From Qipengyuania oceanensis (GTDB taxonomy: Bacteria > Pseudomonadota > Alphaproteobacteria > Sphingomonadales > Sphingomonadaceae): a DNA stretch of 64,000 bases. The first letter of the stretch is position 1, and each line of letters starts with the position of its first letter. A model generated the notes under the pieces. It did no database searches, was not told the origin of the DNA, and was given only the letters and a program-made list of their open reading frames with translations. The DNA is taken from positions 1-64,000 of the forward strand of contig NZ_WTYN01000004.1 in assembly GCF_009827535.1 (NCBI RefSeq), given 5' to 3'. The translations under genes were made by a program, and so were the position numbers. This document shows, piece after piece, positions 11,335 through 47,840 of the stretch.

Positions 11335-12612
11335 ATGGACGCAATCGAGCACCAGCGTCGGAATCCGGGAGAGGATCGATGCCCCGGGCCAAGCACCCGG
11401 GACATCATCCTTGCTGACGGGTGCGAGGTCCCGGACGCGCTGGTGGCCGAAAGCTACGAATTTCTCGGCGATGGCGAGATTGCCTACGATCGCTACACCT
11501 CGACTGACGCGATGCAGCAGGAGATGGAGCGGCTCTGGCCAAAGGTATGGCAATGGGCCTGCCGGATCGAGCACGTCCAGGAACCGGGCGACTTCATCAC
11601 CTATGATATCGGTCGATATTCGGTGATCGTCACCCGGACCGAGGATGGCCGGATCAAGGCCTACCGCAATGCCTGTCTCCATCGCGGGACGCAGCTGAAA
11701 CCGCCGGCGTCGTCCGGCGCGGCAGACGATCTGCGCTGCCCGTTCCATGGTTGGACCTGGAACCTTGACGGGTCGTTGAAAAACATTCCTTGCCGGTGGG
11801 ATTTCCCGCATGTGAAGGACGAAGAATACAGCTTGCCAGAAGTGCGTGTCGACACGTGGGGCGGGTTCGTCTTCGTCAATCTCGATCCCGATTGCGCACC
11901 GCTGATCGATCACCTGGGCCCCTTGGCGGAGCATTTTTCCGACCGCTGGGACCTAACCGATCGCCGCATTCGCCTACACATCCAGAAAGAGCTGCCGACC
12001 AACTGGAAAGCCGCGCAGGAGGCGTTTCTCGAAGCCTACCACGTCTACGAAACTCATTCCCAGGCTCTGGCGACTGCGGGCGATGCCAACGCCCAGTATG
12101 ACGTATTCTGCGATACGGTGACGCGCTTCGTCCACACGATCGGAACTCAGAGCCCGCACTACGAAGGCGAGCAGACCGAGCAGGATATCCTCGATAAGAT
12201 GCGGCTGCCGGAACAGGCTAGCGTGCCGGAAGGCAAGTCGGCTCGCTCGGTGGCCGCCGACATCCTGCGCCGCCAGATTGGTGCGGCCAGCGGCGTCGAT
12301 CTTGCACGATATTCGGACAGCGAGATGCTCGATTCAATCGAGTATCATCTATTCCCCAACATGTGCCTGTTTCCGGGCGTTTCGCTGCCGATGATCTATC
12401 GCTTCCGTCCTGTCGGCGAAGACCCCGGGCGTACCGTTTTCGACCTCCTGTTTCTCGACATGGTCCCCGACGGTACGCCAATGGATTATCCGCCCGACCC
12501 AGTCGTGCTCGGCGTAGATGCCTCCTATGCCGATGCGCCGGGCATGGATCCGGGCCTGGGCGCGGTCTACGACCAAGACACTGGCAACCTCGCGCTGCCG
12601 TCGCGAAAATGA
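11335..12612 (+). CDS. Rieske-type ring-hydroxylating oxygenase alpha subunit, C-terminally truncated
   Basis: A 425-residue oxygenase large subunit. The Rieske [2Fe-2S] ligands are C114-x-H116 and C135-x2-H138. The mononuclear iron site is in EAYHVYETH, with H236 and H241. Such enzymes add oxygen to aromatic or other cyclic substrates using electrons from a reductase and ferredoxin, neither of which is encoded nearby. The protein breaks off after DQDTGNLALPSRK; relatives usually continue about 35-40 residues with a last helix ending in a YQE...H region. The stop overlaps the ATG of the next, N-terminally truncated gene, so the end is probably a deletion scar. Activity without the last helix is uncertain. 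Confidence 0.82.
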   Translation: MDAIEHQRRNPGEDRCPGPSTRDIILADGCEVPDALVAESYEFLGDGEIAYDRYTSTDAMQQEMERLWPKVWQWACRIEHVQEPGDFITYDIGRYSVIVTRTEDGRIKAYRNACLHRGTQLKPPASSGAADDLRCPFHGWTWNLDGSLKNIPCRWDFPHVKDEEYSLPEVRVDTWGGFVFVNLDPDCAPLIDHLGPLAEHFSDRWDLTDRRIRLHIQKELPTNWKAAQEAFLEAYHVYETHSQALATAGDANAQYDVFCDTVTRFVHTIGTQSPHYEGEQTEQDILDKMRLPEQASVPEGKSARSVAADILRRQIGAASGVDLARYSDSEMLDSIEYHLFPNMCLFPGVSLPMIYRFRPVGEDPGRTVFDLLFLDMVPDGTPMDYPPDPVVLGVDASYADAPGMDPGLGAVYDQDTGNLALPSRK

Positions 12613-14030
12613 AGGGAACCTACCTGCCGATCACGATCGACGGCACGGAGCCGCCGCTCGGTTTCAGGCAAGTGCAGGTTCTCCCGCTGGCCGGGTGGGA
12701 CGGCGTCCAGCAAGCGAGCGAGTTCAAGGCCCTCGTGCGGGCGATCCGGGCGCGGCTCGGCCACAGCTCGGTCCCCAAGCGTGTCGCGCCTTCGCCCGAC
12801 CAGCCGCAAACGGTATCCGCAAGGGCAATTGCCGATCATCTCGACCGACCGTCGATCGCGGTCCTTCCGTTCCGGCATCCGCCGAACGACGAAGACCAGG
12901 CCTATTTCGCTGAGGGCATGGCGGACGACATCATCGCCGGCCTGTCGCGATCGCGCCTGCTGCGCGTCACCTCGCGCCAGTCATCGCTGTCCTACGATGC
13001 CGAGTCGGCGAGCACGGCGCAGGCCTGTAGCGACCTGTCGGTCCGTTATCTCGTGCGCGGACAGATCCGGCGCATGGGAGACAAGGTGCGGGTCCGCATC
13101 GATCTCATCGACGGCGATACCGACGAAATCGTCTGGACCGGCCACCAGGACCGGCCGGTCGACGAGGTATTCGAACTGCAGGACGAGATCACGCAAGGGA
13201 TCGTCTGCACGATCGAGCCGGCCTTGCTCGGGCGCGAACAGGAACTGGCTGCGCGCCATCCGCAGGACGTCAAGCACTGGGACCTGTTCATCAGGGGGCG
13301 CCACCACTACTGGCGGTCGACCTACGAGGATTTCCGCAAGGCCGACGAACTGCTGCTGGCGGCGCTGGAACAGGATCCCGATCACGCCCCGACACTGGTG
13401 CTGCTGGCTCTGTCGAAACTCGGCAACATCTGGGGCGGCAAGACCAAGAACTTCGACAAGACCATCGGCGAGGCATTCGATTATGCCTCCCGGGCAGTCG
13501 CCGCCGATCCGCGCGATTCGGCCTCGCACCAGGCGCTGGGTGTCGTCCTTACGCTGACCGGGCAATTCGAACAGGCCACCGCGGAGCAGCGCCGTGCGCT
13601 CGATCTCAATCCCAGCAACGCGCCTGCGCTGGGCGAGCTGGGTCGACTGCTCGCCTTTCGCGGCGATCCGGAGGAGGCCATCGTGCTTTCCTCCGAGGCA
13701 TTGCGGCGCAGCCCGACCGATCCGCACGACTGGCTGTGGCTGCGCGCCATGTCGACGGCGGCGCTGCGGGCAGGCCGCCCGGTCGAGGCGCTGCGGCACG
13801 CGCATGACGCGCTATCCCGTCGGCCGGACTTCTTCTTCCTGCATTTCCAGGTGGCCGTGTGCAGTCAGCTGCTCGGCGAGACCGAGGCGGCGCGATTGGC
13901 CTGCGAGCGGGGCGTGGCGCTCAACGAGAACTATTCGCTCAAGGCGCTTCGTCTCGGATATCCCTACGCCAACGAAGAAGATCTGGACACATTCGTGAAC
14001 GCGCTGCGCGCATCGGGCTGGCAGGGGTAG
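12609..14030 (+). CDS. TolB-like/TPR protein with decapitated TIR domain
   Basis: A 473-residue protein. Residues 1-50 (GTYLPITIDGTEPPLGFRQ, then LAGWDG) match only the last strand and helix of a TIR domain as found in the well-known TIR-TolB-TPR proteins. A TolB/FlgO-like nucleotide-associated domain follows at about 75-215 (SIAVLPFRHPP; YFAEGMADDIIAGLSR; YLVRGQIRRMGDKVRV), then about six TPR units to the end. The first two-thirds of the TIR domain, including any catalytic glutamate, is absent. The frame is open upstream inside the oxygenase gene but is not TIR-like there. Genome annotation often calls such proteins adenylate cyclase; no cyclase domain is present. Confidence 0.7.
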   Translation: MKGTYLPITIDGTEPPLGFRQVQVLPLAGWDGVQQASEFKALVRAIRARLGHSSVPKRVAPSPDQPQTVSARAIADHLDRPSIAVLPFRHPPNDEDQAYFAEGMADDIIAGLSRSRLLRVTSRQSSLSYDAESASTAQACSDLSVRYLVRGQIRRMGDKVRVRIDLIDGDTDEIVWTGHQDRPVDEVFELQDEITQGIVCTIEPALLGREQELAARHPQDVKHWDLFIRGRHHYWRSTYEDFRKADELLLAALEQDPDHAPTLVLLALSKLGNIWGGKTKNFDKTIGEAFDYASRAVAADPRDSASHQALGVVLTLTGQFEQATAEQRRALDLNPSNAPALGELGRLLAFRGDPEEAIVLSSEALRRSPTDPHDWLWLRAMSTAALRAGRPVEALRHAHDALSRRPDFFFLHFQVAVCSQLLGETEAARLACERGVALNENYSLKALRLGYPYANEEDLDTFVNALRASGWQG

Positions 14031-23866: not shown

Positions 23867-26203
23867 ATGACCAAGGCGTACAGCAACAAGGCATTGCCTT
23901 CCGGCACCATCCTGCGGGAATGGCGGCTCGAGGAAGTCCTCGGCGTGGGCGGCTTCGGCATCGTCTACAAGGGCCGCGGGATCTATTTCGACGAGCTCGT
24001 CGCGATCAAGGAATACTTCCCGAGTTCGATCAGCGAGCGCGACGCCGAAGCGACCGTCGTACCGATCGATTCCGATGCCGAGGAAGTCCACGCGCTCGGC
24101 CTGAAAAAGTTCGTCGAGGAAGCGAAGCTGCTGTGGAACCTGTCCACGCCCAGCCGCCATCCGAACATCGTGAGCGTGCGCAGTCTCTTCGAGGTTCATG
24201 GCACCGCCTACATGGTCATGGATTTCGAGGACGGCGTTTCGCTTACCGACCTGCTAAAGAAGGGCGAGACCTTCGACGAGGACAAGCTGCGCGAAATGGT
24301 GCTGCCCGTCGCTTCGGGCCTGGAACGTGCGCACCGTGTCGGCGTGCTCCACCGCGACATCAAGCCATCCAACATCCTGATTTCGGAAAGCGGCGCCCCG
24401 GTGCTGATCGACTTCGGATCGGCCCGCTTCGAAACCGAAGGCGTGACCAGCACGACGGTCACCTTCCACACGCCGCCCTACGCGGCGATCGAGCAATATG
24501 TGAAGACCTACGCGCAAGGGCCGTGGACGGATATCTATGCGCTCGGCGTGGTCCTCTATGGCTGCATCACCGGAGAGAAGCCGGCCGAAGTGCTCGAGCG
24601 GCTGCATGGCGAACAGGAACCGCCGTTGGTCGATGGCGACTGGCCCGGATACAGCCGCAAGTTCCTTGCCGCGGTCGATGCCGCGATGATCATCAAGCCG
24701 AGCGATCGACCGCAGTCGCTGGCCGAGTGGCTGGCGATGTTCGACGACGAGGGAGCGGATGCAGGTGCGGTCACGGCTGCAACCGGTTTCGACGAAGACG
24801 ACGACGAGGCGACCCGGATCGTCCCCATGACCTCGAGCGAGACGATCGTGCCGGTCAAGCCGCCTGAACCGCAGGCCGAACCGCCTGCCGCTGTCGAGCC
24901 ACCTGCGCCGGTGCCACCGCCTGCGACGAGCGCGGCGAAGCCCGAGACGCCGCTCGATCGCAAGGCCGAGGCCGTGATGGCTGCCGAAACCGCCGCAGCT
25001 GCCGCCGCGAGCAGGGGTGACACCGGATCGCGTGGCCGTCCGCCGATTGACCCGGCAGACGACACCGCGAAACCCGCTTCCGCAGGTAGCGACAAGCCGG
25101 TCCGGAAAAGCGGCACCGAGCCCGCCGCACCCAAGAAGTCGAAGATGCCGCTGTTCCTTGCCGGTGCCGTGGTCGTTGCGGGGGGTGCCTTGATCTGGGG
25201 TGCCATGGGCACAAGCGACGAGCCGCCGGCACCGGAGCAAACCGTCGCGGTGGAAGAAATCTCGCACGACGACGGGTTCGGGCCGGCGCTTACTCAGTTG
25301 GTCGCGCTTGCCCGCCAGAACGGCATCGACACCGATGCGGTCGAACTGCTCGAAACCCGAGCCCAGCGGATCGCTGGGCTGGAAGCCGAGAACGTGGCGA
25401 TCGCGGAGGATCCGGCGCGCGAGAAGGACGTCAGCTTCAACCGCTTGCGGATCGCCGACATCACCCGATCGAGCCTGGGCGCGCTGGCTATGAGCCTCGC
25501 ACGCGATCTCACTGCCGAAACGCGCCGGCTGGTCGCCGCGGCTCCGTGGGCCGATCCGCGGGTGGAGAATTCGGCGGCGGGCGAGAGCGTGCAATTGCAA
25601 CAGATCGCCGCGCGGCTGGAGCAGTCGATGCGGGCATCGCGCCAGTCGATCGAGGCCCTGCGCGGAGCGGAATCGGCAGAGGATGCCGTCCCGCTGGCTC
25701 AGGCGATGATCACCAATTACGCGGCTTACAAGGCAGCGGTGGACGATGCGATCGAAGCCAGTCCGCAGGTCTCGGTCGAACCCACCGCGACCGCATCCGC
25801 ACGCCCTGCTGCCACCGCCACCGGGACACCGATCGCGACGGAATCGCGCGAGGTCGTTCAGGAGACGAGCAGCGGCGGACGCCCCGTCGATGCCATCCGC
25901 GCCGATCTCGACCGGATTGCCGATACGGCTGAACGCTCAGCCAACGAGGTGATCCAGATTGCGCGGGCGCGCGACCCCGGTCGCAACGCCACCCCGGACC
26001 AGAAGCAGGCCTACGACACGCTGCAAGTCAACGCCAAGGCGGCCCGCGACTACAAGTCCTATCTCGACACGCTGAAACGGTCGGCCCGCGGCGCAGCCAC
26101 CTCGGCCGATGCCGAGCGCTTGCTGGCGCAGGGGCGGCAGACCAACGATTACCTTTCGGCGGTGGTCAGGAGTTCGCGAGCGGCCCGCGCCAAGCTCGAC
26201 TGA
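23867..26203 (+). CDS. Membrane-anchored Ser/Thr protein kinase
   Basis: A 778-residue Hanks-type kinase. The catalytic domain covers about residues 15-290, with glycine loop GVGGFG (26-31), AIKEYF with Lys48, the catalytic loop HRDIKPSN (H162, D164), DFGSAR (D182) and the activation segment VTFHTPPYAAIEQY. A Pro/Ala-rich linker follows, with one transmembrane helix at about 427-448, then about 330 residues outside the membrane that are Ala-rich and helical, with no family I recognise; this would be the sensor. The start at 23867 begins directly before the conserved domain. A PP2C phosphatase converges on its 3' end and an FHA protein lies 3 kb further, the classic writer-eraser-reader set. 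Confidence 0.9.
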   Translation: MTKAYSNKALPSGTILREWRLEEVLGVGGFGIVYKGRGIYFDELVAIKEYFPSSISERDAEATVVPIDSDAEEVHALGLKKFVEEAKLLWNLSTPSRHPNIVSVRSLFEVHGTAYMVMDFEDGVSLTDLLKKGETFDEDKLREMVLPVASGLERAHRVGVLHRDIKPSNILISESGAPVLIDFGSARFETEGVTSTTVTFHTPPYAAIEQYVKTYAQGPWTDIYALGVVLYGCITGEKPAEVLERLHGEQEPPLVDGDWPGYSRKFLAAVDAAMIIKPSDRPQSLAEWLAMFDDEGADAGAVTAATGFDEDDDEATRIVPMTSSETIVPVKPPEPQAEPPAAVEPPAPVPPPATSAAKPETPLDRKAEAVMAAETAAAAAASRGDTGSRGRPPIDPADDTAKPASAGSDKPVRKSGTEPAAPKKSKMPLFLAGAVVVAGGALIWGAMGTSDEPPAPEQTVAVEEISHDDGFGPALTQLVALARQNGIDTDAVELLETRAQRIAGLEAENVAIAEDPAREKDVSFNRLRIADITRSSLGALAMSLARDLTAETRRLVAAAPWADPRVENSAAGESVQLQQIAARLEQSMRASRQSIEALRGAESAEDAVPLAQAMITNYAAYKAAVDDAIEASPQVSVEPTATASARPAATATGTPIATESREVVQETSSGGRPVDAIRADLDRIADTAERSANEVIQIARARDPGRNATPDQKQAYDTLQVNAKAARDYKSYLDTLKRSARGAATSADAERLLAQGRQTNDYLSAVVRSSRAARAKLD

Positions 26204-26232
26204 GCGCCTGCCGCAGGGATTGTGCCCGGCGG

Positions 26233-26946
26233 CTAGACCACCCGGACGACGATGACGCTGACATTGTCGGGTGCGCCTCGCTGCAGCGTCATTTCGACCA
26301 GGGTTTCGCAGGCTTGGCCCGGATTGGCAGTCGAAACGACGCGGCAGATCTCATCGTCCGCGACGCAGCGGGTCAGCCCGTCGCTCGCGAGAATGAAAAT
26401 GTCGTTCGGCTGCGCGACGTCGACGACGTGATCGATTTCGAGGTCCTTGTCCGCACCCACCGCGCGCGTGATGACATTGGCGTCGGGATGGTGCACCGCC
26501 TCTTCGGGCGAGATCAATTTGTTGTCGACGAGCTTCTGCACCAGGCTGTGGTCGCGGGTGACTTGCGCGATCTCGCCGTTCCGTACCCGGTATCCCCGGC
26601 TGTCCCCCACCCAGAACATCACGTGTCGTCCGTCGTCGGCGATGAGCAGGCCGACCGCGGTGCTGCCCATCTTCTTGTTCGCCTCGCCGATCATCGCCTG
26701 GACCATCCTGGTATTGGCGGCCTGGAGCGCGGCCTCGATCTGTTGCAGCGCGGGGCCCAGTTCGATCTCGGTCACTGCGCTCTCGAGCGCGTCCACGACC
26801 ATGCCGCTCGCGACCTCGCCGGCTTCATGGCCGCCCATTCCATCGGCAACGACCCACAGCGACTGGTCCGGTCGTTCGAGCAACGCGTCCTCGTTTACCT
26901 TGCGCTTGCACCCGACATCGGTGCGACTGGCAGACTGGAACCGCAT
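26233..26946 (-). CDS. PP2C family Ser/Thr protein phosphatase
   Basis: A 237-residue soluble PP2C phosphatase (PppA/Stp type). The metal-binding residues are present: NEDA with D20, DGMGGH (35-40), GDSR near 118, SDGLT near 190 and APDN near 226. It removes phosphate from Ser/Thr and would oppose the kinase, whose gene ends 29 bp away on the other strand. About 145 bp separate it from the divergently transcribed K+ channel gene. No membrane segment. Confidence 0.92.
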   Translation of the reverse strand: MRFQSASRTDVGCKRKVNEDALLERPDQSLWVVADGMGGHEAGEVASGMVVDALESAVTEIELGPALQQIEAALQAANTRMVQAMIGEANKKMGSTAVGLLIADDGRHVMFWVGDSRGYRVRNGEIAQVTRDHSLVQKLVDNKLISPEEAVHHPDANVITRAVGADKDLEIDHVVDVAQPNDIFILASDGLTRCVADDEICRVVSTANPGQACETLVEMTLQRGAPDNVSVIVVRVV

Positions 26947-27091
26947 GACGATTTCCTAGGCCTGCCCGGGGCGCTCTGGCAATGGCTCTCGTAGCCGCGA
27001 GCCTGCATTTGCGAGCAGGGCTTGGCCCATGCGCCCCCCGCATGGCATAAGATGGTCCGGACGCGTTATCATCCAAGGGGGGAACGAGAGC

Positions 27092-27547
27092 GTGCTGATT
27101 ACGCTGGCTATCACGGTCGCGGCCATCGCTGCGTGCAATGCGGTCCATTTCCTGTCGCTGCGCCGACTGGCCCACGTGTTTCGCGACGAGGTTCCACCGG
27201 TCAAGCATCCGATGCTGGTCGTCTCTTTCGTGATCATGCTCATCCATCTGGTCGAGGTCATGATCTACGGGCTGGCGATGTGGGTCCTCGCCATGCTGGA
27301 GCGCGGCAAGCTCGCCAGCACGCACCCGATCGACTTCCACGGCCCGGCGGAATTCTTCTACTTCTCGATCGCAAGCTACACCACGCTCGGGATCGGCGAC
27401 ATCGTTCCCACCGGTCACCTGCGCATCGTGGTCGGGATCGAGGCCTTGCAGGGACTGATCCTGATCGCTTGGAGCGCGTCGTTCAGCTACCTCGTCATGG
27501 AGAAGTTCTGGAGCCGCCACGGCGGCAAGCTGCTCGACGACGCGTGA
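27092..27547 (+). CDS. Two-helix potassium channel family protein
   Basis: A 151-residue inner-membrane protein. The selectivity filter TTLGIGD (97-103) matches the TTxGxGD pattern of K+ channels, preceded by a pore helix (FHGPAEFFYFSIASY) and followed by an inner helix (about 111-135). There are one or two further hydrophobic segments before the pore. There is no RCK or other ligand domain, so gating must come from elsewhere. I chose the GTG at 27092 because AAGGGGGGA lies nine bases upstream; an ATG at 27029 in frame has none. The gene lies between the phosphatase (divergent) and the SLOG membrane protein (convergent, 19 bp). Confidence 0.82.
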   Translation: MLITLAITVAAIAACNAVHFLSLRRLAHVFRDEVPPVKHPMLVVSFVIMLIHLVEVMIYGLAMWVLAMLERGKLASTHPIDFHGPAEFFYFSIASYTTLGIGDIVPTGHLRIVVGIEALQGLILIAWSASFSYLVMEKFWSRHGGKLLDDA

Positions 27548-27566
27548 GCGATCGCCGCCCGGCTCC

Positions 27567-29354
27567 TCAGGCGGGAACCTCGAGCGAGCGTTCGCTGTAG
27601 GCGGTGGTCCATTCGTTCAGGTCGGCCAACATGATGTAGGACGTGGTCTGCAACTCCTCGGCGAGGCCTTCGATCGTGTCGATCTCGGACAGTCGGCGGG
27701 CGTTTTGGCGCAGCGCTGCTGCCGATTCCGCCGAGCGGCTGGCCTGCAACAGGTGTTCGCCATGGCCGCGCATGCCGAACACCGCAGCACCGGCAGCAGG
27801 GAGACCGGCGGTGAGCACGACCAGCAAATTGGTCATCGACTTCACGACCTCGTGCATCGCGAAATATCCGATGATGTAGAGGATGCAGGTTGCGATCACG
27901 AAGCCCATCAACAATTCGCCCACCTCGTGCAGGCGGTGATCGAGATGTCGCATACGCTCGGCATTGACGTCGTGATACTCGGCCTGCGGCATGACCTGTT
28001 CCTCGATCGCCGCCCGCGCCAGCGCGGCCACTTCGGCATCGGTCATGTCGCCGCCGGGACTCGCCATTTCGCGCCAGATTGCCGCGGCATACCAGCGGGT
28101 CCAGTCTGTACCGGCCTCGCGTCGGTGCGCACCGGATATGAAATCGGTCCGAAACGGCGGGCCCGAAAGGCCCGAGCGCTTGAGGTAGACCAGCGGCCGC
28201 AGGGATTCGGCAAGGTGGCGATATTGCAGCCACCGCCGATGCCAGTCGCCCTTCTTGCCCGCAGAGGTGTTGTAGAAGAGCAGGCCGATGAGCACGAGTT
28301 CGGTCATCACCAGGAAGATCTTGATCTCCGGTGCCAGCAGCCCGGTCAGCGCTACGATTACCGCGGCGGCGGACAGGGCGTAATTGGTGATGTGTCCCGA
28401 GCGGAACATCTGCGCATAACGGATGGCGAGGAAGTTCGCCCAGCCGTAGCTGCGCTCGAGCGGCATGCGCATCGACGGACGGAAACTGCGCCGCAGCACG
28501 GAACGTTCGCGCTCGATATCGGTCTCGATCGAATCCTGTAGCCACAGCGGCCGCGGCAGCTTCTTGATCCGCAGCAGCCAGAGGAGGACGGGATACTCGA
28601 TCCTGTAATTCCGCCGGTTCTCGATCTCGGCATAGTAATCGAGGATCTGCGCGCGCTCGATCGATTCGTGCGGAGCGAGAATGTCGGCCAGCAGGGCGGT
28701 GAAATCCTCCTGGGTCGCGAGCGGAACATAGTCAGGATCGTCGAGCGTGCCGCCGCTGATAAGGCGCGGCTCCGAAGCCGTGCCATTGCCGCGGTCGATG
28801 TGGAGATGGATGACCGGGACATTCTCGCGCAGCGCCAGTTCGACCACATGCGCCGTTCCACCGGGCCCGTTGCCGGGCTCGCCGTCCCAGATCGCCACGA
28901 TCACGTCCGATGCCGCGATCACGGCCTTGCCGACCAGCACGTAGGCATCGTGCGCCGTGCGGTCGCCAGGCAGCGTCATCACGGTATTGGCGTCGGACAG
29001 AAAGGTCTTGAACAGCGCCAGGTCCGCACCCTGGAAATCGCGCTCGTACTCCTCGATCTTGAAGGGCAGGAGAGCGCGCAATATGAAATCGTTGGCCTGC
29101 GCAGCCTCGGCCGCCAGCTGATCCGATCCGCTCGCCAGCGGCGTGTGCAGGCGGACGATGGGATCGTCGTCTGCGAAAATGGCGCTCTCACGCTCGCGCA
29201 GGTCGAAAGCTGCCTGTTTCAGCTGGGCGAAGATCCCCCGCAGCTGTTCGCGCACCGGCCCGGTGAGTTCTTCGCCGATCGCCTTCGCGCGGTGACCGGT
29301 GATCCCGACATTGAGCGCCAGCCGCGGGCGAGGCGGATGGTCGAACGTCTCCAC
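27567..29354 (-). CDS. SLOG nucleotide-sensor domain fused to four-helix membrane region (SLATT-like)
   Basis: A 595-residue protein. Residues about 10-190 look like a SLOG Rossmann-like nucleotide-binding domain: start strand LNVGITGHR (G17, G20, H21, R22), LASGSDQLAAEAA (73-85), and the phosphate-type loop DGEPGNGPGGTAHVVELA (157-174). Four membrane helices follow in two pairs, about 324-340/343-361 and 480-498/506-527, separated by about 115 soluble residues with a conserved-looking RWLQYRHLAESLR stretch, as in SLATT/DUF4231-type membrane domains found with nucleotide-sensor systems. The start is a GTG ten bases after the stop of the TIR-FHA gene, so the two are co-transcribed. Known relatives in defence systems disrupt membranes when the SLOG domain binds a NAD-derived signal; that role here is inference. 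Confidence 0.75.
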   Translation of the reverse strand: METFDHPPRPRLALNVGITGHRAKAIGEELTGPVREQLRGIFAQLKQAAFDLRERESAIFADDDPIVRLHTPLASGSDQLAAEAAQANDFILRALLPFKIEEYERDFQGADLALFKTFLSDANTVMTLPGDRTAHDAYVLVGKAVIAASDVIVAIWDGEPGNGPGGTAHVVELALRENVPVIHLHIDRGNGTASEPRLISGGTLDDPDYVPLATQEDFTALLADILAPHESIERAQILDYYAEIENRRNYRIEYPVLLWLLRIKKLPRPLWLQDSIETDIERERSVLRRSFRPSMRMPLERSYGWANFLAIRYAQMFRSGHITNYALSAAAVIVALTGLLAPEIKIFLVMTELVLIGLLFYNTSAGKKGDWHRRWLQYRHLAESLRPLVYLKRSGLSGPPFRTDFISGAHRREAGTDWTRWYAAAIWREMASPGGDMTDAEVAALARAAIEEQVMPQAEYHDVNAERMRHLDHRLHEVGELLMGFVIATCILYIIGYFAMHEVVKSMTNLLVVLTAGLPAAGAAVFGMRGHGEHLLQASRSAESAAALRQNARRLSEIDTIEGLAEELQTTSYIMLADLNEWTTAYSERSLEVPA

Positions 29355-29364
29355 GGACGCAGCC

Positions 29365-30321
29365 CTAGTCGAGGTCGGCGAATGCACGGACGCGGTGGGT
29401 GAGGACGATATCGCCCAGCTGGAGTTCGGACCCGGCTGCCAGCACCGTTGGCTCGTCGATTTGCTGGCCGTCGATGAAGGTCCCGTTCGTCGACTGGAGG
29501 TCGGTGACGACGAGTTCGCCCGCAGTAAGGTCGATCTTGCAATGCCGGCGCGAAATCCGCTTGTCGGAAAGGATGATATCGGCCGGTGCGGCACGACCGA
29601 TCTTCGCGCCGAGCAGGCCGATCGGATGGCGGACCAGGGGCGCCTCCTCGGGTCCGATCTCGAGGCAGTGGATTTCGCTGCCATGCATCCGCCGCTCGGC
29701 ATCGGCCGGTGTGTAGAACGCCGTCTGCTCGGTCTCCGAACCGGGCAGGGGTTCCGCGGCAGTGGGCTGCTTGGGGATGGACGGAATGTGCGCGGCCAAT
29801 GGTTCTGGTGCCGGCGCGATCGGTTCACGACGCGGATCGGCCCGGTAGGCCGGCGCGGCTGGCGGATCGTCTGCCAGCAGAAAGCCGCGGCTCGGCCGCG
29901 CTGGCGCGGGACGAGTGTCCGCGGGCGGGCTGACGAGGTGGCGGATATCGCCGATCAGCCGCTGCCAGATGGCCGCATTGCGATCGCCGTCCCAGCTCGA
30001 AAGATCGGTCGTATGGGTCAGCTCGAACATGATCGGCAGGTCGCACGGTTCGATGATCACCGGGCACAGGATGCCCCGGCGGTCCGCCAGGGTGGCTTCG
30101 GCGCGGACCCAACGAGAGGCGACCGAACGCGGGGACCACAGGATCACCGCCGCCCTTGCTGCACGCAGCTGCTGCTCGATCACTTCGTCGAAGGTTTCGC
30201 CCGAATGGATTGCGGCATCCCACCACACTGAGAAGCCTTCGTTCTCCAGTCGCGCGGAGATGCGTTCCGCAGCGCTGCGGTCATCCCGGCTGTAGGATAC
30301 GAATATGTCGTGCCCTCGCAC
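29365..30321 (-). CDS. TIR-FHA fusion protein
   Basis: A 318-residue soluble protein. Residues 3-135 are a TIR domain (HDIFVSYSRDD at 4-14; FSVWWD at 30-35), and SPRSVASRWVRAE has Glu75 in the S-x2-S-x2-S-x-W-x3-E arrangement of NAD-cleaving TIRs. A Pro-rich linker spans about 140-225. A C-terminal FHA domain covers 236-315 with the phosphothreonine-binding residues IGR (241-243), SRRH (257-260) and STNGT (277-281). I choose the GTG at 30321, because AAGGAG lies five bases before it; an ATG 72 bases upstream has no such site. It is upstream of and coupled to the SLOG membrane protein. The FHA domain would read kinase output; TIR activity is predicted from the motif only. Confidence 0.85.
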   Translation of the reverse strand: MRGHDIFVSYSRDDRSAAERISARLENEGFSVWWDAAIHSGETFDEVIEQQLRAARAAVILWSPRSVASRWVRAEATLADRRGILCPVIIEPCDLPIMFELTHTTDLSSWDGDRNAAIWQRLIGDIRHLVSPPADTRPAPARPSRGFLLADDPPAAPAYRADPRREPIAPAPEPLAAHIPSIPKQPTAAEPLPGSETEQTAFYTPADAERRMHGSEIHCLEIGPEEAPLVRHPIGLLGAKIGRAAPADIILSDKRISRRHCKIDLTAGELVVTDLQSTNGTFIDGQQIDEPTVLAAGSELQLGDIVLTHRVRAFADLD

Positions 30322-30498: not shown

Positions 30499-30630
30499 GA
30501 AACCAAAGCGCGCAGGTGACCTGAATCGGGATTCGCGGCCGAACACAGGATTTGCCTCCTTGAAAGGACGGGCGTCTTTCGGTGGCATTTCGATTGCGTG
30601 GCATGACGCGTGGTTGTAGCGGCCGTTGAA

Positions 30631-31173
30631 ATGAAAGCGCATTTCGACGGCAACGACTTTCCGGACGGGCTCAAGAGCCTGTTCGAAAGCAGCAGGGTGT
30701 CGCTTTCCATTGCCGACTACACCGCGCCGGACTGCCCGCTGGTCGGTGTAAACGACATGTTCTGCGAGATGAGCGGGTACGAGGCCGGCGATGCATTGGG
30801 CCGCAATTGCCGTTTTCTCCAGCCGGAAGGCGGTGCGGGGCCGGTGCGGCAGCGGATGCGCGAATATCTCGCCGAAGATGGTCCTGGTAACGCCAAGTTC
30901 GTCGTACCCAATGTCCGGCGTGACGGCAGCCAGTTCCTCAACCTGCTCTACATGGCCAAGCTCACGCGCGACGGTAAGGTCCGGCTGGTCCTGGGCTCGC
31001 AATTCGCGATCGATGAAAATACGGGCGAGAGAGCCGGAGTGTACGATCTTGCCTTGCAATCGGACTTGCGCCAACTCAATCTTCTGACTGCCGACGACAA
31101 CTGGGCGCTGCTCGGCAGTTACGACGCGCTGGCGTCGAGCCATTCGATAATCGCCCAGGCGAAGCTGGACTGA
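30631..31173 (+). CDS. LOV-domain (blue-light PAS) protein
   Basis: A 180-residue protein consisting of one LOV domain and a short helical tail. The flavin motif GRNCRFLQ (57-64) contains Cys60, which forms the light-induced adduct, with N41 in VGVNDMF, N104 in QFLNLLYM and Gln124 in GSQF, the usual contacts of the flavin ring. In LOV proteins blue light changes the conformation of an attached partner. Here no output domain is attached. The stop shares a base with the next start (TGATG), so it is made together with the CheB/CheR/HWE kinase and may regulate it as a separate subunit. The start is uncertain: a GTG at 30610 is also in frame, and neither has a good ribosome site. Confidence 0.82.
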   Translation: MKAHFDGNDFPDGLKSLFESSRVSLSIADYTAPDCPLVGVNDMFCEMSGYEAGDALGRNCRFLQPEGGAGPVRQRMREYLAEDGPGNAKFVVPNVRRDGSQFLNLLYMAKLTRDGKVRLVLGSQFAIDENTGERAGVYDLALQSDLRQLNLLTADDNWALLGSYDALASSHSIIAQAKLD

Positions 31174-34100
31174 TGAATGTGCAACCCGAATTGACGCCGG
31201 ACGACAGGACCGGCTTTCCCATCATCGGTGTCGGTGCATCGGCTGGCGGCCTCGAGGCGCTGCGCGAGATGTTCGGCGGCTTCAAGGGACAGAGCGGCAT
31301 GGCCTTCGTGGTCGTCCAGCATCTCGATCCGACCCATGAATCGCTGATGGCGCAATTGATCGAGCGGTTCACCTCGATGCATGTGAAGCAGGCGGAAGGC
31401 GGCGAGACGCTGGAGCCCGATCACGTATACGTGATCCCGCCCGGCCATGGTCTCGCGCTGAACGGCGGCATTCTCAGCCTCACCGAATTCACCGATCCGC
31501 GCGGCATGCGCCGGCCGATCGACGATTTCTTCGAAAGCCTGGCGGAGGATCGCGGCGAACGCGCGGCCTGCGTCATCCTGTCGGGGACCGGGGCGGACGG
31601 CAGTCGCGGTTTGCGCGCGATCAAGGAGCACGGCGGCCTGTGCGTCGTCCAGGAACCCGACACCGCAGCCTACGACGGGATGCCGACATCGGCGATCGGG
31701 ACCGGGCTGGTGGATATCGTTGCCGAGCCCGGCAAGGTACTCGACACGCTGGCGAGCTTCTTCGATCGCGGGACGATCACCGAAGACCAGGTGGAAGAGG
31801 CGGGAGCGGTCGCAGATCACGTCGACGATCTGTGCGAAGTCCTGCGCGAAGCGGTCGGACACGATTTCTCGCGCTACAAGCGCAGCACGCTCAACCGCCG
31901 GATTGCCCGGCGCATGCAGGTCCTGGGGATAGAGGATGGGGCGGCCTATCTCGCGCGACTGCGCAGCGATGCGGACGAATGCGACGCGTTGTTCCGCGAC
32001 TTGCTGATCAACGTCACCAAGTTCTTCCGCGACCCGGAAGAATTCCAGACGCTGAACTCGCTGGTCATCGATCGCCTGGTGGCCAATGCCCGCAATCGCG
32101 AGGAGATCCGGGTCTGGGTGCCGGGCTGTTCGAGCGGCGAGGAAGCCTATTCGCTCGCGATGATGTTTGCAGCCGCCAACGAACGTCACGGCAAGCACGC
32201 CTATGTCCAGATCTTCGCGACCGACATCGACGATGCGATGCTCGATATCGCACGATCCGCGACCTATCCGGCATCCGCTCTGACGGATATCCCGGCCATG
32301 TACCGCGACGAGTACATCATCGCCGGCAGCGACAAGTTCGCGATCGCCCCGCGCGTGCGGGACATGGTCCGCTTCAGCGTGCACAATCTCGTGCGCGATC
32401 CACCCTATTCGAAAATCGATCTCGTCAGCTGCCGCAACCTGCTGATCTATTTCGACGAATCGCTACAGGAAACCGCGGTCCCGCTGTTCCATTTCGCACT
32501 CAAACAGGACGGAGCCCTGTTCCTCGGTTCGTCCGAGGCGATCGGCCGTTTCGAAGATCTGTTCGAGCCGATCGATCGCAGCGCCCGGGTATTCCGTCGC
32601 AGGAGCGTGAAGGGCAACTACAGCCTGGTCCTGCCCAATGAAACGGGCGCTACCGCGCGGCGTCGTCGGTCGCCGCGGGAAACGTCGCCGCCGGTACGCG
32701 CGGGCAGCGCCGAAATCACCGCGCTGCGGATGGTCGCCGACAAGTACGCTCCGGTCAGCTTGCTGATTGATCGCGACGGTTGCCTGCTCGACCGCTGGGG
32801 GCCGGCAGCCCGCTTCCTCGATTTCCCCGAGCGGCTCGAACGTACGGTGCACGTCCCGTCGTTGGCGAGGCCGGGGCTGCGCGAACTGATCGGTCCGCTG
32901 ATCCGCCAGGTCGGCGAAAGTGGCCGGCGTGCCGGTGCGAACGACGTCGAGATCCGCACGCAGTTCGGCGCGGTGCCCGCCCGCGTGGTCTGCGAGAAGG
33001 TGGACGAAAGCTCGTTCCTCTTCGTCATCCGGGAAACCGGCGAGCTCAAGGTAGCGGACGACGACTTCGACGAGATCGATCCGGAAGACGGCCAGCGCCA
33101 GTTCCTCGAGGAAGAGTTGCAACTGACGCGCCATCGGCTTCGCTCGACGGTCGAGGAGCTCGAGACGAGCAACGAGGAGCTGAAGAGTTCCAACGAAGAA
33201 ATGATGTCGATGAACGAGGAGCTCCAGTCGACCAACGAGGAGCTGACCACGGTCAACGACGAATTGAAGAACAAGGTCGACCAACTCACGGTCGCCAATG
33301 CCGATCTGCGAAATTTCTTCGACAGCACGCAATTGGCCGTTCTGGTCGTCGATGCCGAGATGAACCTGCGCAGCTATACCGATGCTGCCCTGGATCTTTT
33401 CCCGATCGGAGCAAATTTCATCGGACGGCCGCTCGCCGACCTGCCGAGCAAGCTCGACGCACACCGGTACGTGGACGATGCGCGTGCGGCCGCGATCGAT
33501 GGCGAGCAGACCGAAACGAGTATCCACTCGGCCGTTCTCGGTGCCGAGTTCATCCTGCGAGTACTTCCCTATCGCCTGCTCGACGGAAAGATCGATGGTG
33601 CGACGCTGGTGTTCACCGACGTTACCGAGGCACTTTCGCTCGAGCGCAACCTGCGCGAAGAGCGCGAACGCCTGCGCCTGGCGCTGGAGGTCGCGGAAAT
33701 CGGCATCTGGGAATACGAGCCGGCGACCGATCGGATCATCCTCGACGAGACTGAGCGCCGCCTTCTTGCCCTTTCGCCCGACGATCCCGGCGATTCCATG
33801 GAACGGATCCTCGCAAGGTTGACCACGGAAGATCGCGACCGGATCAACCGGGCGCTGCGCATGGCGATCGAGGGCGGTCAGGAGTTCGACGAGACTTTCC
33901 GCCTGCCGCTGGGCGACGGCGAATATCGCTGGCTTCACGGCCTCGGCAAAAAGATCGACATTGCCGGTAAACGCAAGTTCATCGGTACGACCTTCGACAT
34001 CACCTCCGATCGCATCCTGCTCGATCAGCGCGAACTGATGATCCGCGAGATGAACCACCGGGTGAAGAACCTGTTCTCGGTCATCGCCGCAATGATCACG

Positions 34101-34619
34101 ATCGCCGCGCGCGAGAAGGACGACGTCGAAAGCTTCGCCGAGAGCCTGCGCGAACGCATTCATGCGCTCGGCCGGTCACATTCGCTGACCAATGAAGCGG
34201 GCGTTAGCGGTGAAGGCCGGGTCCAGCTCGACCACCTCGTCGATACGGTCATCAAGCCGTCGCTGGCCGGTCAGTCGATCGACACCGATGGCGAACCGCT
34301 GACGATCGAGAACTACCAGATCACATCGCTCGCACTGATCCTGCACGAATGGGCGACCAATGCCAGCAAGTACGGGGCGCTGGCGACGAAAGACGGCTCG
34401 ATTCGCGTCGAGTGGGCCGAAACGGACGGCAATGTCGAACTCACCTGGACCGAGCAGGGTAGCGCTGTCGGCAATAACGAGGAACCTGCGACCCCCGGAT
34501 TCGGGACGCGCCTGGTCGAAACGGCCGCACGGCAGCTCCAGGGCAGCGCGACCGGTGGCCCGACCGAGGATGGTTACCGGCGAACGCTCACTTTCCCGAT
34601 GGCGACAACTACCGGCTGA
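31173..34619 (+). CDS. CheB-CheR-PAS-HWE histidine kinase fusion
   Basis: A 1148-residue signalling protein. A CheB methylesterase domain covers about 12-195 (GASAGG with Ser23; QHLDPTHES; GTGADGSRG). A CheR methyltransferase domain is at about 225-480 (SGEEAYSLAMMFAAANE). A long coiled coil with repeated NEEL units follows at about 645-710, then two PAS domains (about 715-830 and 835-945), and an HWE/HisKA_2 kinase with phospho-His962 in NHRVKNLFSV and the HEWATNASKYGAL box. No receiver precedes CheB. Such proteins are common in Alphaproteobacteria, and HWE kinases often feed the general stress response. It is coupled to the LOV gene; the single-domain receiver at 34626-34994 converges on it and is a likely partner. 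Confidence 0.9.
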   Translation: MNVQPELTPDDRTGFPIIGVGASAGGLEALREMFGGFKGQSGMAFVVVQHLDPTHESLMAQLIERFTSMHVKQAEGGETLEPDHVYVIPPGHGLALNGGILSLTEFTDPRGMRRPIDDFFESLAEDRGERAACVILSGTGADGSRGLRAIKEHGGLCVVQEPDTAAYDGMPTSAIGTGLVDIVAEPGKVLDTLASFFDRGTITEDQVEEAGAVADHVDDLCEVLREAVGHDFSRYKRSTLNRRIARRMQVLGIEDGAAYLARLRSDADECDALFRDLLINVTKFFRDPEEFQTLNSLVIDRLVANARNREEIRVWVPGCSSGEEAYSLAMMFAAANERHGKHAYVQIFATDIDDAMLDIARSATYPASALTDIPAMYRDEYIIAGSDKFAIAPRVRDMVRFSVHNLVRDPPYSKIDLVSCRNLLIYFDESLQETAVPLFHFALKQDGALFLGSSEAIGRFEDLFEPIDRSARVFRRRSVKGNYSLVLPNETGATARRRRSPRETSPPVRAGSAEITALRMVADKYAPVSLLIDRDGCLLDRWGPAARFLDFPERLERTVHVPSLARPGLRELIGPLIRQVGESGRRAGANDVEIRTQFGAVPARVVCEKVDESSFLFVIRETGELKVADDDFDEIDPEDGQRQFLEEELQLTRHRLRSTVEELETSNEELKSSNEEMMSMNEELQSTNEELTTVNDELKNKVDQLTVANADLRNFFDSTQLAVLVVDAEMNLRSYTDAALDLFPIGANFIGRPLADLPSKLDAHRYVDDARAAAIDGEQTETSIHSAVLGAEFILRVLPYRLLDGKIDGATLVFTDVTEALSLERNLREERERLRLALEVAEIGIWEYEPATDRIILDETERRLLALSPDDPGDSMERILARLTTEDRDRINRALRMAIEGGQEFDETFRLPLGDGEYRWLHGLGKKIDIAGKRKFIGTTFDITSDRILLDQRELMIREMNHRVKNLFSVIAAMITIAAREKDDVESFAESLRERIHALGRSHSLTNEAGVSGEGRVQLDHLVDTVIKPSLAGQSIDTDGEPLTIENYQITSLALILHEWATNASKYGALATKDGSIRVEWAETDGNVELTWTEQGSAVGNNEEPATPGFGTRLVETAARQLQGSATGGPTEDGYRRTLTFPMATTTG

Positions 34620-40569: not shown

Positions 40570-40941
40570 ATGATGATCACCGCCAGCCTCGCTTTGGCCT
40601 TTCTTGCAGCCGGTCCGGCAGGTTCCGTCGAGGAAGTCGACGTGGCTTTCGAAAAGCTTGCAGCCGGTCAGAACGCAGCCGCGATCCGCCAGATCGAAGA
40701 CAACGACAATCTGCGCAGCGACGATCCGGCGCGGCTCGTGAACCTGGGCGTTGCCCATGCGCGCGAGGGCGACCTGGAAGCCGCGCGGGCCTATTTCCGT
40801 GCGGCCATGTTCAGCGACGATCGCCAGATGCTCGAGACCGCGAGTGGCGAGTGGGTCGACTCACGCGTCCTCGCTCGTCAAGCCCTGGCGCGGATCGATG
40901 CAGGGCGGTTCGACGACCAGCCCAGGATGGCAGCCCGGTAG
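40570..40941 (+). CDS. Small secreted TPR-like protein
   Basis: A 123-residue protein with a short hydrophobic N-terminus (MMITASLALAFLAAGPAGS) that looks like a signal peptide, followed by about two TPR-type helical pairs (RLVNLGVAHAREGDLEAARAYFRAAM). It would sit in the periplasm and bind a partner protein. Divergent from the lipoprotein gene and followed by a clear terminator at 40971-41001, so it is monocistronic. Close relatives are annotated only as hypothetical. Confidence 0.75.
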   Translation: MMITASLALAFLAAGPAGSVEEVDVAFEKLAAGQNAAAIRQIEDNDNLRSDDPARLVNLGVAHAREGDLEAARAYFRAAMFSDDRQMLETASGEWVDSRVLARQALARIDAGRFDDQPRMAAR

Positions 40942-40970
40942 CGCTGTTTTCCACACGGAATTCTATCGGG

Positions 40971-41001
40971 GCCCGCCTTCAACGGCGGGCCTTTTTCTTT
41001 G
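40971..41001 (+). terminator. Intrinsic terminator after the TPR gene
   Basis: Stem GCCCGCC (40971-40977) / GGCGGGC (40984-40990) with a 6-nt loop, then CTTTTTCTTTG. It isolates the small TPR gene from the secretion operon that starts 67 bp later. Confidence 0.9.
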
Positions 41002-41067
41002 TCGTGTTCAGCCGTTTGTCACCATCGTGTCATGTAGAGTATCCAGGGGAACTGGACGGAGGGCGCG

Positions 41068-41685
41068 ATGATTCTTGGCGCGAGCCTGCGGTCCTGCATC
41101 CTGGCAGGGTTCGCATGCATGTCTGCCCCGGCGTGGGCGGACGTATTGGAAATTTCAGGCGAAAGCGCGCATTGGGTAACCGGCGATCGCGCCGGTGTGC
41201 CCGTCGATGGCATGCCGGTCGCAGTGGCGGATGCAGAAGGCGTGCCTCTGCCGGCCGAAGCCATTGCCGATCCGCAAGTCCATGCTCGCGCCGTACCGGT
41301 GAACTATAGCGCGAAGGTGGCCGAACTCGCCGCTCGCTATGACCTCAGCCCGGTGCTGATCGAGGCGCTGGTCTGGCAGGAAAGCCGCTGGAACGCGGGC
41401 GCAGTGTCGCCGAAGGGCGCGCAGGGTCTGGCCCAGCTTATGCCGGGCACGGCCCGCGAACTCGGTGTCGATCCGCGCGATCCCTTTGCCAATCTCGAAG
41501 GCGGCGCGCGATACCTGCGTGCGCAGCTCGACCGGTTCGACGGCGATCTCGAAAGGGCGCTGGCTGCCTACAATGCGGGGCCCGGCCGGGTCGAGCGCGC
41601 CGGCGGCGTGCCCGACATCCGCGAAACCCGGAACTACGTGGCGGCGATCATGACCCGCCTGTCCAATCACTCACGGAGCGAATGA
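41068..41685 (+). CDS. virB1: VirB1-like lytic transglycosylase
   Basis: A 205-residue periplasmic enzyme: signal peptide (about 1-24, ending SAPAWA), then a transglycosylase SLT domain with the catalytic Glu in ALVWQESRWNAGAVSPKGAQGLAQ-type sequence (ESRW, then the G-A-x-G-L-x-Q-x-M motif) and AYNAGPGRVE. It would open the peptidoglycan for assembly of the secretion channel. First gene of an eight-gene VirB operon; its stop overlaps the virB2 start (ATGA). Confidence 0.88.
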   Translation: MILGASLRSCILAGFACMSAPAWADVLEISGESAHWVTGDRAGVPVDGMPVAVADAEGVPLPAEAIADPQVHARAVPVNYSAKVAELAARYDLSPVLIEALVWQESRWNAGAVSPKGAQGLAQLMPGTARELGVDPRDPFANLEGGARYLRAQLDRFDGDLERALAAYNAGPGRVERAGGVPDIRETRNYVAAIMTRLSNHSRSE

Positions 41686-41987
41686 CCTTGACCCAATTGC
41701 TTGCCCGCCTGGCCGCGTTCGTCGCGCTTGCCGTCCCTTCCGCGGCCATGGCCCAGACTGCCGATCCCGCGGGCTCCGGTCCGATCGTCGCCGCGCTCGG
41801 CTGGCTGCAGGGAACGCTGCTCGGCAATGTCGCGACGGCGGTCGCGGTGATGGCGGTTGCCGCGGTCGGCTTCATGATGTTGACCGGACGCCTGAACTGG
41901 CGCTTCGGCGCGACGGTGATCATCGGCGTCTTCATCCTTTTCGGCGCGGCCTCGATCGTCGCCGGTATCCAGGGCGTGGCGGCCTGA
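41682..41987 (+). CDS. virB2: VirB2/TrbC-like pilin subunit
   Basis: A 101-residue precursor with a signal sequence (about 1-24, ending AAMAQ) and two hydrophobic helices (LGNVATAVAVMAVAAVGFMML; FGATVIIGVFILFGAAS) joined by a short charged loop, the standard VirB2 pilin plan. It would form the T4SS pilus. Overlaps the transglycosylase stop and is followed one base later by virB3. Confidence 0.88.
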   Translation: MTLTQLLARLAAFVALAVPSAAMAQTADPAGSGPIVAALGWLQGTLLGNVATAVAVMAVAAVGFMMLTGRLNWRFGATVIIGVFILFGAASIVAGIQGVAA

Positions 41988-41988
41988 C

Positions 41989-42285
41989 ATGAGCGACGTG
42001 CCGACATCGCTGGTCCGGCATCCGGTCCACCGCGCGCTGACGCGGCCGCAGATGTTCGCCGGCGTCACTTATAATTTCTTCATCATCAATGCCGCGGTCA
42101 CGACCGAGATCTTCCTCATCACGGGAAGCTGGTTCGCGATCCTCGCCGCGCTGGTGATGCACGGCGTCGGCTATTTCGCGTGCCTGCGCGAGCCGCGCAT
42201 CTTCGACCTCTGGCTGACCAAGGTCAGCAAGTGCCCGCGCGTGAAGAACTACCAGCGCTGGGGCTGCAACAGTTACGCCGCGTGA
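41989..42285 (+). CDS. virB3: VirB3-like inner-membrane protein
   Basis: A 98-residue protein with HPVHRALTRPQMFAGVTYNFF, the typical VirB3 N-terminus, and two adjacent hydrophobic segments (about 35-70). VirB3 associates with the VirB4 ATPase in the inner membrane. Size and place between virB2 and virB4 fit. Confidence 0.87.
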   Translation: MSDVPTSLVRHPVHRALTRPQMFAGVTYNFFIINAAVTTEIFLITGSWFAILAALVMHGVGYFACLREPRIFDLWLTKVSKCPRVKNYQRWGCNSYAA

Positions 42286-42307
42286 CCGGCGGGAAGGAAC
42301 CGACGCG

Positions 42308-47827: not shown

Positions 47828-47840
47828 GGCAAGTCCAGCG

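Follow-up and report, generated by a model that had tools for sequence, protein, structure and literature searches.

We analyzed a stretch of 64,000 nucleotides from Qipengyuania oceanensis (contig NZ_WTYN01000004.1), called the window throughout, and found that five genes at positions 23867-30321 form a conserved unit. They encode a membrane Ser/Thr kinase, a PP2C-type phosphatase, a small ion channel, a SLOG protein with membrane helices and a protein in which a TIR domain is fused to an FHA domain. This cluster probably constitutes a phosphorylation-gated TIR signaling system. Its gene content, the linkage of the genes, the swapping of parts among relatives, the conserved motifs and the SLOG fold were observed, and from these we infer the biochemical steps. 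Gene calling and Pfam searches indicated that all five genes are intact, and the features of the locus are as follows:

23867..26203, plus strand: membrane Ser/Thr kinase of 778 amino acids (Pfam Pkinase, 1.1e-36)
24812..24814, plus strand: Thr316 in a D-x-A-T-R motif of the kinase linker, candidate FHA docking site (alignment of 16 kinases)
26233..26946, minus strand: PP2C-type Ser/Thr phosphatase of 237 amino acids (Pfam PP2C, 5.7e-14)
27029 or 27092..27547, plus strand: small ion channel with the filter TTLGIGD (Pfam Ion_trans_2, 1.3e-9)
27567..29354, minus strand: protein of 595 amino acids with a SLOG domain (about 12-196) and two SLATT-like units of two transmembrane helices each (about 301-390 and 451-583; AlphaFold model and fold matches)
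29365..30321, minus strand: TIR-FHA protein of 318 amino acids with TIR (6-122), a disordered linker and FHA (240-303) (Pfam TIR_2, 1.5e-23; FHA, 6.3e-20)
29722..29724, minus strand: Thr200 in a T(Q)-aromatic/aliphatic motif directly before FHA, candidate phosphosite in cis or in trans (alignment)
30097..30099, minus strand: Glu75 of the TIR domain, predicted NADase glutamate (alignment)

The genes follow each other in the order kinase (plus), PP2C (minus), channel (plus), SLOG (minus) and TIR-FHA (minus). The TIR-FHA gene ends 10 bp upstream of the SLOG gene, so that this pair looks operon-like, and the kinase and PP2C genes converge with 29 bp between them. Since the genes lie on both strands, the set is not one operon, and this makes its conservation more telling. 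All five genes recur at loci L080, L082 and L083. L079 carries the same gene row on a contig that begins within the FHA protein, and L084 and L131 have four of the five genes, the channel being missing and the gene order of L131 being different. A chance neighborhood or a gene-calling artefact, for which the distribution of the genes over both strands might speak, is highly improbable and is refuted by this recurrence. An earlier note on this DNA had described a writer, an eraser and a reader of phosphorylation (kinase, PP2C and an FHA domain fused to TIR), and Pfam bears out this set. The note had also named rare co-occurrence of the genes and misidentified SLOG or TIR domains as findings that would refute its reading, and neither was found where the kinase is present.

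Among 298 genomes of the family, orthologues of the kinase (440-698 bits) were present in 11 at a threshold of 1e-80. In 10 of these 11, the kinase is adjoined by a PP2C and an FHA protein, which is a TIR-FHA protein in nine cases and an FHA-SpoIIE protein in one. Genomes G000 and G244 carry all five genes, and G255 has kinase, PP2C, TIR-FHA and the SLOG protein with four transmembrane helices (SLOG-4TM). The SLOG proteins that accompany kinase, PP2C and TIR-FHA in G257 and G161 are just 31-33% identical to that of the window. In G261, G297 and G168, the protein that accompanies the same three genes combines a SLOG-like stretch with a cyclase-like C-terminus, and for that of G168 Pfam reported TPR-S and Guanylate_cyc above cut-off. 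At the three loci where another gene replaces SLOG-4TM beside TIR-FHA (L170-L172), this gene carries a SLOG-like stretch according to a model built here (E 3e-10 to 1e-8). In G201, kinase, PP2C and the FHA-SpoIIE protein are followed by STAS and HATPase_c_2 genes (Pfam); the phosphatase fusion with these two genes occupies L169:5929-7844, beside the same kinase and PP2C. In G293 the kinase stands alone in the stretch, and this genome is 78% complete.

Searching the 298 genomes with the TIR-FHA protein at 1e-35, we obtained six matches that reach the FHA domain, all of them in genomes with the kinase. In G100, G161 and G255 the match stopped short of FHA, and 14 further TIR loci were therefore checked, a follow-up that left out G282 and second matches per genome. 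Only the loci of G100 and G161 combine the two domains within a single frame, and the other 12 have TIR alone. Taken together, an input block (kinase, PP2C and FHA) and an output block (TIR plus SLOG effector) are separable, and the outputs are swapped: a divergent SLOG-4TM, a TPR-SLOG-cyclase or an FHA-SpoIIE protein with STAS and ATPase may occupy this place. The whole could represent a plug-in cassette, in which a receptor-like kinase and a PP2C write and erase phosphothreonine and the FHA domain feeds exchangeable outputs (TIR with SLOG-SLATT and K+ channel, TIR with TPR-SLOG-cyclase, or a switch of the SpoIIE/STAS/anti-sigma type). We place this generalization slightly short of even.

A second survey was centered on the SLOG protein and covered 79 loci, the genes of which were annotated with hidden Markov models built in this analysis. 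Out of at least 509 relatives, the 80 best supplied these loci, which therefore lean to the window's own kind. The counts include near copies (L117/L123, L151/L152) and shared genomes (L081 = L042, L113 = L044, L134 = L043). L173, which is the L083 locus, was excluded from the distance table and from the Thr counts, and L168, L169 and L175, which have no SLOG gene, stand outside the distance counts. A TIR open reading frame was located within 3 kb of the SLOG gene at 56 of the 79 loci (52 of them without kinase), within 5 kb at 60 and anywhere in the stretch at 63. Flanks of at least 3 kb on both sides were available for 56 loci, 41 of which have TIR within 3 kb. Expressed as density, there were 56 TIR frames in 432 kb at up to 3 kb from SLOG vs four in 595 kb at 5-10 kb. 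TIR-SLOG pairs were also seen beyond the order, in Lysobacter (L122, L125), Phenylobacterium (L097, L110) and metagenome-assembled genomes of Dadabacteria (L151, L152; TIR at a distance of 67 bp). Three TIR proteins classified by Pfam (L042, L045, L046) have TIR followed by TPRs or by AAA and TPRs.

An FHA protein was found at eight of the 79 loci (L076, L078-L080, L082-L084, L131). With thresholds of E ≤ 1e-5 for the PP2C model and E < 1e-60 for the kinase model, PP2C was present at all eight FHA loci vs none of the 71 others (Fisher p 3.8e-11, a value that overstates independence because the FHA-type loci are akin to each other), and the kinase at six of the eight vs none of the 71. The two remaining FHA loci are L076 and L078. 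At L076, a contig edge cuts what by eye is the C-terminus of the kinase, and the kinase domain lies at 90% identity on another contig that stops inside the gene; the kinase is apparently split. At L078 (Croceicoccus bisphenolivorans), the kinase resides on a different contig and has no PP2C or FHA next to it, so that it has been kept though separated. To build a SLOG tree, a quick method without bootstrap was applied to 52 rows, namely the window, L166, L167, L174 and 48 of the 79 loci. This tree required at least three changes of the FHA label, with a main clade that includes two nested non-FHA members and a distant pair (L166/L167).

These data bear on a different reading, according to which the FHA domain reads phosphoproteins of other kinases or of phages and the kinase and PP2C serve another target, so that two independent systems lie side by side. 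At L067, elsewhere in the order, related kinases (43-44% identical) are accompanied by a PP2C and several FHA proteins of their own, and the lone kinase of G293 would also fit. However, FHA, kinase and PP2C stay together with three types of SLOG protein and in rearranged orders. Moreover, the genomes of L077, L085 and L081, in which the SLOG protein is 49-60% identical to that of the window and TIR lacks FHA, gave no kinase match at 1e-20. We consider two independent systems quite improbable.

The kinase comprises a Hanks-type domain (residues 20-241), an acidic linker and one transmembrane segment predicted from hydropathy near residue 429, and its C-terminal part is presumed to be extracytoplasmic. 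The motifs VAIK45, HRD162 and DFG182 are intact. Compared with the window's kinase, 14 of 15 aligned orthologues have a kinase domain of 76-82% identity (66% in L175), and the identity of the C-terminal part is 19-29%. This combination is the pattern expected of a receptor with a varying sensor. Thr316 of the linker is present in 15 of 16 aligned kinases, and Arg317 and Asp312 in 14. The sole kinase without Thr316, that of L175, also has no FHA or PP2C neighbors, and the unlinked kinase of Croceicoccus bisphenolivorans carries the linker Thr as well. Thr316 may be phosphorylated. In another family of the same order, L067:991-15841 holds one FHA protein and a PP2C in a row with two related kinases (43-44% identical); four further FHA proteins of this row look by eye like serine-protease fusions. 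As to the phosphatase, its classification as PP2C relies on the Pfam score and on the Stp1/IreP-type model of NCBIfam, which gave 220.7 bits and thus remained slightly below the cut-off of 230.

In the TIR-FHA protein, Glu75 occupies what we take, from other TIR domains, to be the position of the NADase glutamate. A Glu was kept in 79 of the 81 TIR domains that have a letter at this column (83 aligned), including all 13 rows of the FHA family with a letter. Thr200 directly before FHA is found in 14 of 15 FHA proteins, the FHA-SpoIIE protein included, a count that no other column of the 82-residue linker reaches (Pro170 is present in all 13 rows with a letter). In an alignment of eight rows, Thr200 is invariant, as are R243, S257, R258, H260, N279 and G280 of the FHA domain, presumably the phosphothreonine-binding positions. 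When the FHA part was compared by fold, the FHA domains of GarA, OdhI, EmbR and DgcB ranked within the top 20.

For the SLOG protein, AlphaFold returned a confident model (pLDDT 90.9, pTM 0.90) from an alignment of 49 sequences including that of the window. The best fold match of residues 12-196 was YpsA (Z 18.2, root-mean-square deviation 2.4 over 160 residues), followed by DprA (Z 13-15; 14.8) and LOG proteins (about 9-11), and lower down by EcThsA (9.2), the SLOG domain of BcThsA with 3'cADPR (8.2) and TRPM2 (about 8). The full-length protein gave no Foldseek match at E < 0.001; the matches come from the domain. No Pfam family scored above its cut-off on this protein, DUF4231 reaching 19.2 (cut-off 24.7) with a stretch at 301-379 of a 584-residue version. 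SLATT_1 of NCBIfam matched residues 451-583 of the window's protein with 26.5 bits (cut-off 41). Two of five relatives exceeded this cut-off, each with two stretches (L151, 59.6; L047, 48.1), and the others remained under it (L145, 30.4; L045, 23.3; L122, 14.9). The architecture is best read as SLOG-SLATT-SLATT: the SLOG domain proposed in the earlier note is upheld by its fold, and the four helices are better described as two SLATT-type units. Residues G20, H21, R22, G165, G166 and T167, which belong to an N-terminal G-x-TGHR motif and a Gly-rich nucleotide loop (GGT), are invariant in 49 of 49 rows. The catalytic Glu of LOG hydrolases, which we take to lie three residues after the Thr (GTxxE), is Glu in none of the 49 rows (V 27, I 15, T 3, L 3, M 1), and this suggests a sensor and not a hydrolase. 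We propose that the protein is a nucleotide-gated membrane effector.

Alternatively, the TIR domain might be a scaffold, the FHA domain bringing TIR-FHA to the phosphorylated kinase, with the SLOG protein being regulated by contact or phosphorylation and sensing a metabolite unrelated to TIR. Some TIR domains are adaptors, and SLOG proteins of the YpsA and LOG types bind other nucleotides. On the other hand, the conservation of the TIR glutamate, the linkage of TIR and SLOG across several TIR architectures without FHA and the SLOG-like stretch kept at the three loci that replace SLOG-4TM (L170-L172) argue against a mere scaffold, which we consider unlikely.

The filter TTLGIGD of the small channel is, in our reading, of the K+ type. 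In the 298 genomes, 15 of the 20 best channel matches lie within 3 kb of a SLOG gene vs none of 45 lower-scoring ones. The channel was detected at only two of the 11 kinase loci and also at eight of the 71 SLOG loci without FHA. Since it follows SLOG rather than the kinase, we rejected it as a core part of the phosphorylation circuit; it belongs to the output side. Of the circuit drawn in the earlier note, the succession of kinase, PP2C, FHA/TIR and SLOG is thus supported (co-occurrence, part swapping, conserved Thr), and the inclusion of the channel in its phosphorylation core is not. In addition, caspase-like genes lie 2-5 kb from SLOG-4TM at L092, L113, L128, L139 and L045, possibly as another output or partner; no TIR was seen at L113, L128 and L139, where the flank is short on one side. 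The caspase-like model was seeded from L044 and L045, chosen by eye; L113 and the seed L044 belong to one genome.

The mechanism that we propose would start with the single-pass receptor-like kinase, which would sense a cue via its variable, presumably extracytoplasmic part. Judging from their conservation, the linker Thr would be autophosphorylated and the Thr before FHA would be phosphorylated by the kinase, and PP2C would reset both phosphothreonines. Contacts between FHA and phosphothreonine (kinase to TIR-FHA, or TIR-FHA to TIR-FHA) would gather the TIR domains and thereby switch them on. The TIR domain, as its conserved Glu suggests, would then produce an NAD-derived nucleotide, which may bind to the SLOG domain of the operon partner, and the SLATT helices may open or assemble. 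Where present, the K+ channel might join the same membrane output. In this circuit, phosphothreonine-FHA contacts would do the work for which other TIR partners have a sensor of the TPR or AAA/TPR type, so that a membrane kinase would decide when TIR makes its nucleotide.

Apart from the kinship of the FHA-type loci mentioned above, several observations weigh against this interpretation. G100 has TIR-FHA, kinase and PP2C and no SLOG gene in the stretch, although a SLOG-channel pair is present elsewhere in this genome. At 16 of the 79 SLOG loci no TIR was seen in the stretch examined, and for nine of these the sequence extends about 10 kb in either direction (L090, L115, L118, L119, L134, L140, L146, L148 and L098, the last with only 2.5 kb on one side); the linkage to TIR is thus not universal. 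Pro348 and Gly440 of the kinase linker equal Thr316 in conservation (15), and L171 has no Thr before FHA. The TIR part of the TIR-FHA model is of low confidence (mean pLDDT 61.7), and TIR was therefore judged by sequence alone. Finally, the kinase of L175 stands alone; since its genome is 78% complete, it may have unseen partners.

As to the range of the module, the earlier note had raised co-occurrence beyond Sphingomonadales, and none was seen outside the family in 289 genomes of the class or on plasmids. In these 289 genomes, no kinase above 46% identity was among the matches listed outside the family at 1e-60 and no second TIR-FHA match across both domains at 1e-25. On plasmids there was no match for the kinase (E 1e-60) or for TIR-FHA (1e-20), and the SLOG protein matched six plasmid records with 24-34% identity. 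Viral contigs contained distant kinases only (22 loci, at most 33% identity) and six SLOG-domain matches (25-34%), with no relative of TIR-FHA among them. The genes that flank the module are mostly of metabolic, MFS and TonB receptor types. When 111 flanking proteins of 12 loci were scanned with PADLOC, 20 models were matched at 1e-15, of which 18 are placed by an assignment from 10 of the 111 proteins. Sixteen models fall on a single helicase of L083 (best HKD+Snf2, 3.7e-60). There was also a partial MAD3 match on an L131 protein (86 residues) and a Pycsar-cyclase match on a cyclase-like protein of L080. The matches to DndA and SspA (three members each) are probably ordinary cysteine desulfurases, three members carrying Pfam Aminotran_5. 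The earlier note had pointed to defense islands among the neighbors. With one defense-type helicase and a few weaker matches among the 111 proteins, for which no control set was scanned, no clear defense context emerged, and we rejected a defense island. With mostly metabolic flanks, a role in phage defense is possible and is not indicated by context.

Several neighbors may be recorded here. The helicase (L083:2-3313, Croceicoccus ponticola) is an HKD+Snf2-type protein of 1104 amino acids about 6 kb from the module, with a gene that by eye is resolvase-like in between. In the window, 30610-34619 (plus strand), just upstream of TIR-FHA, encodes a PAS protein (Pfam) and a hybrid of 1148 amino acids, by eye CheB/CheR-PAS-histidine kinase. 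At 40570-48836, 10 kb away from the module, there is a gene row that by eye is a secretion system of the VirB type; the closest relative, Erythrobacteraceae E2-1, has a row of the same kind at a distance of about 1 kb (L076:1967-8706). The gene at 12609-14030 (plus strand) matches the C-terminal part of TIR-TPR proteins and represents a truncated TIR-TPR; the first half of its TIR domain is not encoded in frame upstream, where there is an overlapping gene, by eye a dioxygenase.

The same wiring could alternatively serve a reversible response to envelope or osmotic stress, in which SLOG-SLATT and the channel tune permeability or K+ without killing. The predominantly metabolic, TonB and MFS flanks and the lack of kinase and TIR-FHA on plasmids would fit such a function, and one relative couples kinase and PP2C to FHA-SpoIIE, STAS and HATPase_c_2, a partner switch of the stress-sigma type. 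In contrast, TIR, SLOG and SLATT together are the parts list of abortive-infection systems, and the patchy distribution (11 of 298 genomes) resembles that of defense genes. We regard the stress response as a real possibility, though not as the more probable one.

TIR enzymes are triggered by direct sensing of an invader or by oligomerizing partner domains. If our interpretation of a phosphorylation-gated system is correct, protein phosphorylation would here, for the first time to our knowledge, act as the switch of a TIR enzyme, and stress-kinase signaling would be united with immune-type nucleotide signaling in one modular system. Control by kinase, phosphatase and FHA would make TIR signaling graded and reversible, and with this module one could test whether a membrane receptor kinase can feed immune-type nucleotide signaling in bacteria. 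As a compact system, the SLOG-SLATT protein would allow asking whether SLOG ligands open a membrane pore, and the natural replacements (of FHA by TPR, of SLATT by cyclase and of TIR by SpoIIE) would provide ready-made comparisons.

The earlier note knew of no described system with this set, and in the open-licence literature we likewise did not find TIR-FHA combined with kinase and SLOG. The likeness to Thoeris (types I, II and IV), as far as the accessible parts of the sources go, consists in a TIR gene that adjoins an effector with a predicted nucleotide sensor. According to these parts, TIR domains are switched on by self-association (PMC12847820), SLOG is the sensor of type I ThsA (PMC11204291) and type II ThsA is a membrane effector (PMC12847820). 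In contrast, the proposed effector of our module is read as SLOG-SLATT-SLATT and not SIR2-SLOG, TM-macro or caspase-like, and its TIR domain carries FHA and stands with a kinase and a PP2C. The module does have a TIR domain with a predicted catalytic Glu, at the position we assume for this residue. The SLOG protein gave no SIR2, macro or caspase match in Pfam, PADLOC and NCBIfam, and the type III model ThcB4 of NCBIfam reached 43.6 bits on the module vs a cut-off of 220. Membership in Thoeris was therefore rejected.

Conflict systems with SLOG and SLATT domains were reportedly surveyed by Burroughs, Aravind and colleagues in 2015. The present module differs from them in that SLOG and two SLATT-like units reside in one protein and that the predicted input is phosphorylation. 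In the accessible part of PMC7159879, SLATT is predicted to be a nucleotide-responsive, pore-forming effector with two transmembrane helices, and a kinase with PP2C is mentioned in GAP1-N2 systems, with no TIR-FHA there. KKP combines Ser/Thr kinases, PP2C and FHA in phage defense, and in the available text of PMC11341870 TIR and SLOG have no occurrence. Of its two kinases, one carries CSD and the other FHA, whereas our module has one kinase, no CSD and FHA on the TIR protein. Since PP2C with two kinases bearing CSD and FHA was not found, KKP membership was rejected. The same applies to MADS: mad6 was the top of 33 PADLOC kinase models matched (178 bits), but NCBIfam MAD6 scored 126 bits vs a cut-off of 460. 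CapK/CapS, as far as described in the accessible part of PMC13373217, is a candidate parallel to the STAS/ATPase pair of L169. TRPM2 resembles the SLOG protein in carrying a SLOG-type domain, the ligand of which is ADP-ribose, on a membrane channel (human TRPM2 with ADP-ribose: Z 7.8, root-mean-square deviation 4.1, 178 residues). It differs in its membrane part, and most full-length TRPM alignments (root-mean-square deviation 14-33 Å) carry little meaning beyond the SLOG domain.

GarA and OdhI, which act with mycobacterial and corynebacterial kinases, are FHA proteins with a phosphorylatable Thr shortly before FHA; they inhibit metabolic enzymes and are not known to have a fused enzyme domain. 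The module shares with them the Thr before FHA and the top fold matches and differs in that its FHA is fused to TIR. The OdhI tail also appears in the accessible part of PMC6733907. The same part reports on DgcB of Bdellovibrio (FHA-GGDEF), which makes a messenger under the control of its own FHA domain, the latter binding a Thr of the tail. Like the TIR-FHA protein in our interpretation, DgcB is an FHA-bearing messenger synthase, and its FHA domain was among the top fold matches listed above; it makes c-di-GMP, its kinase is not identified in that part of the text, and the module has TIR where DgcB has GGDEF.

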